Below are positions 46,125 to 49,026 of a stretch of DNA of 64,000 nt, one piece after another. Each line of letters begins with the position of its first letter. The stretch's first letter is position 1. This DNA comes from Halobacterium wangiae. Lineage in GTDB: Archaea > Halobacteriota > Halobacteria > Halobacteriales > Halobacteriaceae. The DNA lies in the NCBI RefSeq assembly GCF_021249345.1, contig NZ_CP089588.1:2294001-2358000 (forward strand). The letters are read 5' to 3'. A model generated the notes under the pieces. The model was given only the letters and a program-made list of their open reading frames with translations, was not told the DNA's origin and searched no databases. A program made the position numbers and the translations under genes.

Positions 46125-47198
46125 TCACTCGGCGTCCTCCCCATCACCCATCCACCGGAGGCCGAGGGAGCGGTAGCCGTCGAACTCGCCGCGCTCGATC
46201 TCCGCCTCGATCTCGGCGTGGGTCTCCGCGTCGATGCGCGCGAGGTGACAGAGCGGGTGGCCCGGCAGCGCCACCGGGTTCTCGAGGACGCCGACGAGAA
46301 TCCCAGTGAACGGCGCCGTGACGACGTGCTCCTCGCTGCTGAAGTGGTCGCTGATAGTGCAGATGGTCTCGCCCTCGTGGACGAGCGGCGCCGGTCCCCA
46401 CTCCATCTCCACGAGACCACCCGTGTCCGCCCGGAGCCACCGCTTCTCCTGGTCGCCTCCGAGGATCTTCTGCCAGTGAGGGTTCGCCCGCTCACCGTCA
46501 GGCCGCACACCGTACTCCGCGAGCACGCTCTCGACCCCGGCCTTCGCCTTCTCGATGAGCGGCCGCTGGAACCGGTGGGCCTTCCCCATCTCGACTGTGA
46601 TCGTCGGGATGCCGTCGCCCGTCGCGACCGCGCGCAGCGACCCCCCGTCGCCCGCGCCGTTCAGAATCACGTTCGCGCCGAAGGACTCGGCCAGGCGCTC
46701 GACCTCGGAGTTCGACATGTCCGCGCGGACGTGGTACATGGTCGTCCGGTTCCGCGTGGACGTGTGGAGGTCGATTCCGAGGTCGGCCTGGCTGACGAAC
46801 CGGCGGTACACCTCGTGAGCCATCCGCTCGGCAGTGTTCGAGCGCTCCCGGCCCGGGAACGACCGGTTGAGGTCCTGATCGTAGATGGGGATGTCACGCT
46901 GCTGGGCGAGGTAGCCCGGGACGTTGACGACGTGCAGGAAGACGAGCGTCCCGTGGAGGTCGCGCGGTTCGTAGCGGTCGGCGACCTCCTGGAGCACCTT
47001 CACGCCGTTCAGTTCGTCGCCGTGGACGCCAGCCGAGAGGAACACCGTCGGGCCGCCCGTGTCCCCGTTCACGACGGTCACCGGCATCTCCACGGGGTCG
47101 CCGAGGTACGTCTCCCCGATCTCGTAGCGGATGTGGCGTTTCTCCCCGGGGTCGACCTCGGCGTCGTACCGGAACGGTTCCGGCGCGGTGTCCGTCAT
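46125..47198 (-). CDS. Succinylglutamate desuccinylase/aspartoacylase-family protein
   Basis: This 357-residue zinc-dependent amidase has VFLSAGVHGDELNGVKVLQE (zinc His and Glu, about 54-73), NVPGYLAQQRDIPIYDQDLN, SFPGRERSNTAERMAHEV and LGIDLHTSTRNRTTMYHVRA (zinc His), and EMGKAHRFQRPLIEKAKAG. The C-terminal 100 residues (GGLVEMEWGPAPLVHEGETI...) look like a barrel domain that follows such enzymes. Family members deacylate N-acyl amino acids. The ATG at 47198 (MTDTAPEPFRYD) is chosen over a GTG at 47207. Confidence 0.85.
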   Translation of the reverse strand: MTDTAPEPFRYDAEVDPGEKRHIRYEIGETYLGDPVEMPVTVVNGDTGGPTVFLSAGVHGDELNGVKVLQEVADRYEPRDLHGTLVFLHVVNVPGYLAQQRDIPIYDQDLNRSFPGRERSNTAERMAHEVYRRFVSQADLGIDLHTSTRNRTTMYHVRADMSNSEVERLAESFGANVILNGAGDGGSLRAVATGDGIPTITVEMGKAHRFQRPLIEKAKAGVESVLAEYGVRPDGERANPHWQKILGGDQEKRWLRADTGGLVEMEWGPAPLVHEGETICTISDHFSSEEHVVTAPFTGILVGVLENPVALPGHPLCHLARIDAETHAEIEAEIERGEFDGYRSLGLRWMGDGEDAE

Positions 47199-47253
47199 GG
47201 CGCTCACCTCTCGAGCAGCGACGAAAAGTCCGGTGTTCCCCGCGCCCCTCGGG

Positions 47254-47892
47254 TCAGTCGGCCAGCGGGTACCGCGCCACCGTCTCGAAGTCGGGGAACC
47301 GCTCGTCGAGGTCGACCGCCACCAGTTCGACGTCCGTCACCCGAACCGACGGTACGTCCAGCGTCCGGTTCCCCTCCAGCCACGCGAGGAGGTCCTCGTA
47401 CCCCTTCTGGGACCGGAACTGCGCGAGCGTGAGGTGGGGGACGTACCCCTCGTCGCGGTCGTGGACCTCGATGCCCTCGATACCACAGGCTCGCTCGTTC
47501 AGCCCCCTCAACGAACCACCGTCGTCCACCGCCGCGAACACCACGGACGGGAAGAGGTCCAGTCGCGGGAAGGTCACCTCGAACGCCGGCGCGTCCGCGA
47601 ACGCCTCCCGCCCTGCCGCAGCGATGTCCGCCTCGTCACCCGCCGACAGTCGCTGGTCTGGGCCGACGTTCCCCGCCACCGTCACCGTCACGTGGAGGTA
47701 GCTCTGGGGGACCACGGCGAGACAGTCGAACTCCGCGAGCGCGTCCAGCGTCGGGCGCAACGCGTCGCGGACGGACTCGTCGTCGACGCGCGCGAGGAAG
47801 ACGAGGTGGCGACCGCCGTTCTGGTCGTCCACGTCCATCTCGGTCGTCGGCTCAGGCGTCAGCTCGTGACGCTCGTCCCAGTAGCCTGTCAC
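47254..47892 (-). CDS. 2',5' RNA ligase/cyclic phosphodiesterase-like protein (HxTx family)
   Basis: This 212-residue 2H-superfamily protein has the two HxT motifs: SYLHVTVTVAGNVG (HVT) and YVPHLTLAQFRS (HLT). The two halves, each with a strand-helix pattern, form the usual bilobal fold acting on 2',3'-cyclic or 2',5' phosphodiester bonds in RNA. The start is the GTG at 47892; an ATG at 47838 would remove 18 residues. A TATA-like cttacta lies about 27-30 nt upstream of the GTG. It lies 55 nt upstream of the succinylglutamate desuccinylase-like gene on the same strand. Confidence 0.82.
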   Translation of the reverse strand: MTGYWDERHELTPEPTTEMDVDDQNGGRHLVFLARVDDESVRDALRPTLDALAEFDCLAVVPQSYLHVTVTVAGNVGPDQRLSAGDEADIAAAGREAFADAPAFEVTFPRLDLFPSVVFAAVDDGGSLRGLNERACGIEGIEVHDRDEGYVPHLTLAQFRSQKGYEDLLAWLEGNRTLDVPSVRVTDVELVAVDLDERFPDFETVARYPLAD

Positions 47893-47937
47893 GTGCGGGA
47901 CGACGGGGGACAGCGTAGTAAGGATGGGGGTCGGGGT

Positions 47938-48189
47938 TCAGCGGTCGCGGCCTTCGAGACGCACTGCGAGTACGAGCAGGACGTAGACGACCGCGAGGGT
48001 GACCGGTAACAGTGCGAGCGCCTGGTAGAAGTCGCCGAACGGGAGGCGTTCGGCGATTTCGCGGGAGAGCACGACGCTGGTCGCGCCCACGAACAGGGCG
48101 CTCCACGCCGACACCGAGTCCATCAGCCGATCGAGTCGCGCGTCTATCGGGTTCTGCTGGCGGTCACTGGGTGTGCACTCGGTGGTCAT
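47938..48189 (-). CDS. Small membrane protein of the Xre/DUF2178 module
   Basis: This 83-residue protein (MTTECTPSDRQQNPIDARLD...) has an N-terminal hydrophilic part and two hydrophobic segments (WSALFVGATSVVL about 29-41, ALALLPVTLAVVYVLLVLAV about 57-76), then a positive tail. I do not recognise the family. Its start overlaps a 23-codon leader ORF whose own TATA-like box lies in the tandem palindromes at 48279-48311. These palindromes have an imperfect third copy in the promoter of the DUF2178-xre pair, so all are likely controlled together. Confidence 0.62.
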   Translation of the reverse strand: MTTECTPSDRQQNPIDARLDRLMDSVSAWSALFVGATSVVLSREIAERLPFGDFYQALALLPVTLAVVYVLLVLAVRLEGRDR

Positions 48190-48257
48190 GTGTGGGCTGG
48201 GTCGTCGCTGGCTGGCGGTTCGGCGTGTCGGTTCTGGCTGTGTCGGGTTCGGGTCAT
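48186..48257 (-). CDS. Possible leaderless 23-codon leader ORF
   Basis: ATG at 48257 encodes 23 residues (MTRTRHSQNRHAEPPASDDP...) and a TGA overlapping the ATG of the 83-residue membrane protein at 48189 (ATGA). A TATA-like tttaca lies about 25 nt upstream inside the first palindrome. Low complexity and basic composition argue for a translated leader at most. Confidence 0.3.
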   Translation of the reverse strand: MTRTRHSQNRHAEPPASDDPAHT

Positions 48258-48278
48258 GGCTTGCACGAGACGCGAGGT

Positions 48279-48311
48279 GTAAAGCGAGCTTTACAGTAAA
48301 GTATGCTTTAC
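48279..48311. promoter_or_regulatory. Tandem 17-bp palindromic operator
   Basis: Two perfect palindromic units, gtaaagcgagctttac (48279-48294) and gtaaagtatgctttac (48296-48311), are joined by one A, giving a 17-bp period. They differ only in the central three bases. The site overlaps the TATA-like box of the small membrane gene's promoter on the minus strand. A third imperfect copy is at 49011-49026. The adjacent Xre-type repressor is the obvious candidate to bind it. Confidence 0.7.
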
Positions 48312-48362
48312 ACGTCCACCTAAATCTATCGGTGAGGACGAATTCGGCAGTGTACGTTCCTT

Positions 48363-48572
48363 TCAGTCGCTGTCATCGTCGAGTTCCGGGTCGAACAGCT
48401 CCTCGATGCGACAGTCGAACTGCCGCGCGAGCTTGAACGCGAGTTCGATCGAGGGGTCGTAGCGGTCGCGCTCGATGGCGTTGATGGTCTGGCGCGTGAC
48501 GCCGACGGCGGCCGCGAGGTCAGCCTGACTCAGCCCCGCTTCCTCCCTGTGGGCGCGGACGTCGTTCTTCAT
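48363..48572 (-). CDS. Xre/Cro-type helix-turn-helix regulator
   Basis: This 69-residue protein is almost entirely an HTH_3 domain: KNDVRAHREEAGLSQADLAA, AVGVTRQTINAIERDRYDPS, LAFKLARQFDCRIEELFDPE, with the turn residues of the recognition helix in VTRQTINAIE. It resembles the short YozG-type repressors encoded with DUF2178/DUF3796 membrane proteins. The start overlaps the stop of the DUF2178 gene by 4 nt, so it is co-transcribed and probably autoregulates through the palindromes in both promoters. Confidence 0.86.
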   Translation of the reverse strand: MKNDVRAHREEAGLSQADLAAAVGVTRQTINAIERDRYDPSIELAFKLARQFDCRIEELFDPELDDDSD

Positions 48573-48985
48573 CGGCGGTACCGGACGACGGTGTACACGA
48601 TTCCGTACAGTACGAACAGCGCGGATAGCGCGACGAACCCGCCCCAGACGCGGTCCGGGACGTCGACGGCTGCGGTGTTCTCCGCGACGACGAGTGTCGT
48701 CATCGTGAGCAACCCGACGACGGCCGCAATCTGGAGCGTCAGATAGCTCGCGCGGCGCTCTAACGCGGCGTCACGCTCGTCGAACAGGTCTACGGACGTC
48801 CCCTTCCAGACGCCGACGAACCCGAGGATGCCGACCCAGTAGACGGCAAGGCCGACCAGGGGGTAGCCGAACTCGCCCGCCGCGACGAACCCGCCGACGC
48901 CGACCAGTATCGACCCGTACATCAGCCGCCGGTAGCGGCGGATTCGCGCCAGTTTGTTCCGGCCACTCGCGTTCGCTCTGCTCAT
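48569..48985 (-). CDS. DUF2178-family membrane protein
   Basis: This 138-residue membrane protein has four hydrophobic segments: MYGSILVGVGGFVAAG, VGLAVYWVGILGFVGV, LQIAAVVGLLTMTTLVV and WGGFVALSALFVLYGIVY. DLFDERDAALERRASYLT between helices 2 and 3 is the conserved acidic loop of DUF2178. The role is unknown; such proteins are nearly always next to a short Xre regulator, as here. The ATG at 48985 has a TATA-like gttttaca 27-29 nt upstream, overlapped by an operator-like site. Confidence 0.8.
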   Translation of the reverse strand: MSRANASGRNKLARIRRYRRLMYGSILVGVGGFVAAGEFGYPLVGLAVYWVGILGFVGVWKGTSVDLFDERDAALERRASYLTLQIAAVVGLLTMTTLVVAENTAAVDVPDRVWGGFVALSALFVLYGIVYTVVRYRR

Positions 48986-49010
48986 ACACGGGGCTCTCTC
49001 GCGCACCACT

Positions 49011-49026
49011 GTAAAACGTACTTTCC
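49011..49026. promoter_or_regulatory. Imperfect third operator copy over the DUF2178-xre promoter
   Basis: On the minus strand ggaaagtacgttttac matches the palindrome unit gtaaagtatgctttac at 13 of 16 positions. It covers the TATA-like box (49010-49017) of the DUF2178-xre operon, the same placement as the tandem copies over the other promoter. This supports autoregulation by the Xre protein. Confidence 0.6.

Follow-up and report, generated by a model that had tools for sequence, protein, structure and literature searches.

The question raised by a short minus-strand gene cluster of Halobacterium wangiae is which protein recognizes the palindromes in its intergenic DNA, and which genes that protein controls. 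Within the window (the whole stretch of 64,000 nucleotides that was analyzed), the cluster comprises, in order, a DUF2178 membrane protein gene (48569..48985, 138 amino acids), an xre regulator gene (48363..48572, 69 amino acids) that overlaps it by 4 nt, an intergenic pair of palindromes (48279..48311), a gene encoding a small membrane protein of 83 amino acids (47938..48189), and a LigT-like protein gene (47892-47254); genes resembling 2-oxoacid:ferredoxin oxidoreductases are also neighbors. We propose, with a probability of about 0.78, that the palindromes are operators of the Xre protein, that Xre represses two operons, and that DUF2178 is the membrane partner that releases Xre.

The genes themselves are as the initial annotation described them: DUF2178, a 69-residue HTH_3 protein, and an 83-residue membrane-type open reading frame (ORF). 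The DUF2178 product passes the gathering cut-off of Pfam PF09946 by a modest margin (24.5 versus 22.8 bits, E = 3e-05). Its AlphaFold2 model (mean pLDDT 82) consists of four predicted helices at residues 6-38, 42-62, 70-103, and 111-137, and a fold search of this model against the PDB returned no meaningful match (best E = 0.67). Xre is a single HTH domain at residues 6-59 (HTH_3, E = 7e-19) and falls within a size range of approximately 65-70 amino acids; its closest solved relatives are 9k3w and CylR2 (1utx/2xiu). The recognition helix region, VTRQTINAIERDRYDPS, is near-invariant, alongside a near-invariant operator. DUF2178-helix-turn-helix pairs are already annotated in public haloarchaeal plasmids. 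A phage origin is unlikely, the phage matches coming from bacterial viruses and being less than 60% identical.

The 83-residue protein has no family match, and a scan of genome contigs with this protein alone returned no hit; alignment placed its homologues only in close relatives and in one genus of another family, and they directly follow the tandem palindromes in G010, G012, G007, G060, and L106. On the same strand, a 23-amino-acid ORF (48186..48257) immediately downstream of the operator ends in a stop codon that overlaps the start of the 83-residue ORF (ATGA). These two ORFs are fused in frame in the relative L005, giving one protein of 102 amino acids, and in L007 and L008 the membrane protein has seemingly been eroded to a leader ORF of 16-41 amino acids with an ATGA overlap with the ABC ATPase start.

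The tandem palindromes reported in the initial annotation are real and exact. Palindrome 1 (48279-48294, GTAAAGCGAGCTTTAC) and palindrome 2 (48296-48311, GTAAAGTATGCTTTAC) both have the 6-4-6 form GTAAAG-N4-CTTTAC; each is strictly 16 bp rather than 17 bp long, and the period of 17 bp arises from a single spacer base at 48295. This pair accounts for every exact GTAAAG-N4-CTTTAC in the 3.11-Mb genome, where a composition-based estimate predicts approximately 1e-10 tandems. The third copy claimed upstream of DUF2178-xre (49011..49026, GTAAAACGTACTTTCC) is also real, albeit degenerate, with 2-3 mismatches. Genome-wide, GKAAARNNNNYTTTMC has only five matches, this copy among them, and equivalent single sites are found in the relatives L004, L005, L006, and L008 and in G060 and G330. 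Weaker single sites at other places in the genome (C1:828960 and C1:909587) yielded no convincing regulon member. The first of these, L060:1501-1516, precedes a lipoprotein-like ORF by approximately 21 nt; it could mark a weak regulon member or merely an A/T-rich promoter.

Absence of the palindromes near orthologues in related species had been named as the observation that would count against an operator, and they are present there. A pattern search made without reference to genes found the tandem in 115 of 391 haloarchaeal genomes, representing 41 of the 86 genera, and the reversed pattern matched none of the 391. Among the 30 tandem loci inspected first, 28 lie next to DUF2178-xre, and one of these (L059) shares this window's layout with the tandem after xre. 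For the converse test, 80 loci were chosen by Xre similarity alone and 950 bases upstream were scanned, at least 20 of 24 tandem positions being required to pass. The tandem was found at 64 of these loci, upstream of xre at 61 and, as in the window, downstream at three; slightly narrower bounds gave 62 in a rerun. Reversed sequences reached a top score of 17, and none of the 80 passed. Several of the 16 loci lacking the tandem retain a single site. Haloferax larsenii and H. marisrubri are among the species that carry the module. Because paired sites recur with the same spacing beside the same genes in well over 100 haloarchaeal species, the tandem is very probably the operator of the neighboring Xre and hence of the DUF2178-Xre module. 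Related palindromes (GTCAAGCACGCTTGAC and GTAAGGTGTACTTTAC) also lie upstream of xre homologues in a bacterial metagenome-assembled genome (MAG; L183) and a Thermoplasmata MAG (L181), a hint that this type of operator may be older than the haloarchaea.

The position of the tandem relative to promoter elements (for haloarchaeal promoters, see PMC4983044) is also conserved. In gene orientation the approximate consensus across loci is cga.AgattTA..t..g.gT-GTAAAG-N4-CTTTAC-T-GTAAAG-N4-CTTTAC, with T as the spacer base in all 62 loci compared. A TATA-like element begins at -13 from the tandem in 46 of these 62 loci (and in approximately 36 of 50 in another sample); in the window this offset is occupied by TTTAGG (48319-48324, minus strand), with a BRE-like CGATAGA just upstream (48325-48331, minus strand). 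The distance from tandem to start codon varies widely among loci while the TATA spacing is constant; the operator thus keeps its place relative to the promoter rather than to the coding sequence. In haloarchaea, transcription usually starts some 26-27 nt downstream of the TATA box. Since the TATA-like element has a fixed offset, this usual distance puts the predicted start at the tandem spacer, in a region (48292..48298, minus strand) at the tandem centre, approximately 26-27 nt from the middle of the TATA element. The operators of the membrane-protein promoter are thus predicted to lie between the TATA box and the transcript start region, off the TATA box itself.

This geometry bears directly on the mechanism first suggested for the locus, in which Xre covers the TATA element at both promoters, blocks TBP, and governs a three-gene membrane-stress or toxin/immunity module. 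The palindromes had been said to overlap the TATA-like box of the 83-residue protein, but the conserved TTTAGG falls outside them: at the tandem, the TATA-like element occupies a fixed position 8-13 nt ahead of the palindromes, and the operators flank the predicted start, which speaks against TBP blocking there. The DUF2178 promoter of the window, which has one weak site and no clear TATA upstream of it, is the only place where a single site could overlap the TATA element; its TTTTAC half precedes the DUF2178 start codon by 25-30 nt, the distance expected of a TATA box if the transcript is leaderless. The toxin/immunity part fares no better, as the downstream operon of relatives encodes an exporter, other predicted targets are secreted hydrolases, and no toxin was found; the membrane partners have no toxin-family match in Pfam, NCBIfam, or PADLOC. 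We consider this combined explanation unlikely, although slightly less so than the other alternatives. A type II toxin-antitoxin system was likewise rejected, no toxin partner being detected with the same three resources and Xre having only generic HTH matches to antitoxin models, below curated cut-offs.

In the mechanism that we favor, an Xre dimer would bind each GTAAAG-N4-CTTTAC, the first dimer between TATA and start, the second over the initial bases of the transcript. Occupying adjacent sites on both sides of the start, a short way downstream of TATA, the two dimers would block polymerase recruitment or start-site melting, not TBP binding. Xre would in this way repress its own operon, DUF2178-xre, and, in the lineage of the window, a second operon that begins with the small membrane protein and continues in relatives with an ABC-2 exporter. 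The original proposal that Xre regulates both promoters stands in so far as probable operators link the two; that it does so by repression is suggested by the geometry. The DUF2178 protein, co-encoded with Xre, would most likely release it from DNA upon an envelope signal, as has been proposed for CylR1 and CylR2; this sensor role is suggested by the gene pairing and by analogy.

Could Xre instead activate, or act as a switch in which one palindrome recruits the transcription machinery while the other represses? Among Xre proteins with tandem sites, restriction controller proteins both activate and repress, and our protein resembles them in being a small Xre protein with tandem palindromes at its own promoter and in having weak similarity to PADLOC control-protein models. 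Both palindromes, however, flank the predicted start downstream of TATA, where they would be unsuited to recruiting TBP/TFB, and in many species a third, poorer palindrome lies still further downstream, directly after the tandem. No restriction enzyme or methylase gene adjoins xre, so the protein does not qualify as a restriction-modification controller. Activation is unlikely because the tandem promoters lack any site upstream of TATA, and we rate this explanation slightly below TBP blocking.

The genes that follow the tandem suggest what the repressor would control. In sampled haloarchaea it mostly precedes DUF2178-xre; it follows xre in the Halobacterium relatives G010, G013, and G009, in L106, and in G060 and G330 (genus g28, of another family). 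At these latter loci an ABC ATPase and a large permease lie downstream, often led by the 83-residue membrane protein, and DUF2178-xre has just one site. Halobacterium relatives, a genus of another family, and L106 share the layout site-DUF2178-xre-tandem-(small TM)-ABC ATPase-permease, and the tandem is predicted to drive an operon of small membrane protein and ABC-2 exporter in these relatives, the 83-residue protein being the first gene of the operon. The exporter ATPase in relatives is closest to drrA-type exporters. The genome of the window lacks the ABC-2 exporter at this locus and has no more than a distant paralogue elsewhere (permease 32% identical); the exporter has been lost, which leaves the small membrane protein under the tandem. 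LigT-like and deacylase-like genes replace the exporter of relatives in 46125-48189, and the flanks are otherwise syntenic.

Genomes with several tandems extend this list. The additional copies precede lipoproteins of the DUF3887/alpha-beta hydrolase type, beta-lactamase-fold lipoproteins, a small membrane protein, and an ABC-2 system. The lipoprotein-type DUF3887/alpha-beta hydrolase (EstD-like) follows a tandem in several genera (L074, L075, L077, L081, and L089), and in L081 and L089 it adjoins a relative of the exporter permease (47% identical in L081). In two orphan targets, a DUF2178 gene (L092:2560-2994 and L094:3038-3472) has the tandem but lacks a neighboring xre, and a peroxiredoxin-like gene comes next. 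Judged from sequence, the common theme of the predicted targets is the cell surface and export, and the DUF2178-Xre module appears to be a membrane-linked switch for genes of these functions.

Operators with no adjacent xre (L074, L075, L077, L079, L081, L091, L096, and L098) might also be read to mean that a different, global regulator binds the palindromes and that their position beside xre is incidental. We find this improbable given how regularly tandem and xre accompany each other, whether the loci are selected by the one (28 of 30) or by the other (64 of 80); moreover, the examined genomes with targets elsewhere usually also have a tandem-bearing copy of DUF2178-xre. That the inverted repeats act in RNA, as leader hairpins or as a terminator of DUF2178-xre, is very improbable: they do sit downstream of xre, ahead of the next gene, and their arms can pair, but the sequence is kept and not the pairing (51 one-sided versus six two-sided arm changes over 124 palindromes, with the central bases mostly unpaired), which indicates protein-DNA recognition rather than RNA pairing, and in most species the tandem lies upstream of DUF2178, with half of it preceding the predicted transcript start.

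Taken further, the data allow a tentative model of a module spanning the archaeal class, in which DUF2178 might sense envelope-active molecules (halocins or membrane damage) and free a CylR2-like repressor from start-straddling tandems, so inducing exporters and secreted hydrolases without a phosphorelay. If true, this would be membrane-to-operator signaling without a phosphorelay in archaea. Known operators are scarce among archaeal one-component regulators, and operators legible from sequence throughout a class are scarcer still. The outcome here is a precise 33-bp operator at a fixed position relative to TATA and predicted start, together with a short list of predicted targets (its own operon, the ABC-2 exporter, the small membrane protein, and secreted hydrolases) that is testable in standard haloarchaea. 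It provides a pointer toward the function of the DUF2178 family and a candidate repressor-operator pair for haloarchaeal genetics.

A small Xre autorepressor with a membrane partner is already known in bacteria. What we did not find described in the open-access literature is the class-wide haloarchaeal operator of DUF2178-Xre, its placement around the predicted start, and its predicted regulon; we found no open-access paper that mentions DUF2178. Three bacterial systems invite comparison. The C proteins of restriction-modification systems are small Xre dimers that autoregulate through tandem palindromes, whereas the haloarchaeal locus has no restriction-modification genes, its palindromes differ in sequence and spacing, and its two sites are both placed downstream of TATA, an arrangement that favors repression only. 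In SdpI/SdpR of Bacillus subtilis, a membrane protein shares one operon with an autorepressor, as here, and sequesters it on meeting a peptide. SdpR, however, is of the ArsR type, SdpI and DUF2178 belong to separate families, and sequestration by DUF2178 is hypothetical.

The closest parallel is CylR1/CylR2 of the Enterococcus faecalis cytolysin operon. CylR2, an Xre protein of 66 amino acids, is the closest characterized relative of solved structure (E = 2e-13, approximately 44% identity over 59 residues). It represses its promoter, and its paired small membrane protein CylR1, with three predicted TM helices, is thought to relay an extracellular peptide signal without a phosphorelay (PMC3709268). 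Both systems join a regulator and a small multi-helix membrane protein in one operon, the DUF2178/xre pair, which overlaps by 4 nt here, being conserved. The haloarchaeal regulator's own operon has conserved inverted repeats at its promoters, to which a CylR2-like HTH_3/Xre protein would be expected to bind. DUF2178 has four predicted helices versus three in CylR1, and the two are likened by gene pairing and analogy. The haloarchaeal system also differs in that its tandem palindromes straddle a predicted archaeal start, in the spread of the module over many haloarchaea, and in its predicted targets, which are ABC-2 exporter genes and secreted hydrolases rather than a lantibiotic.
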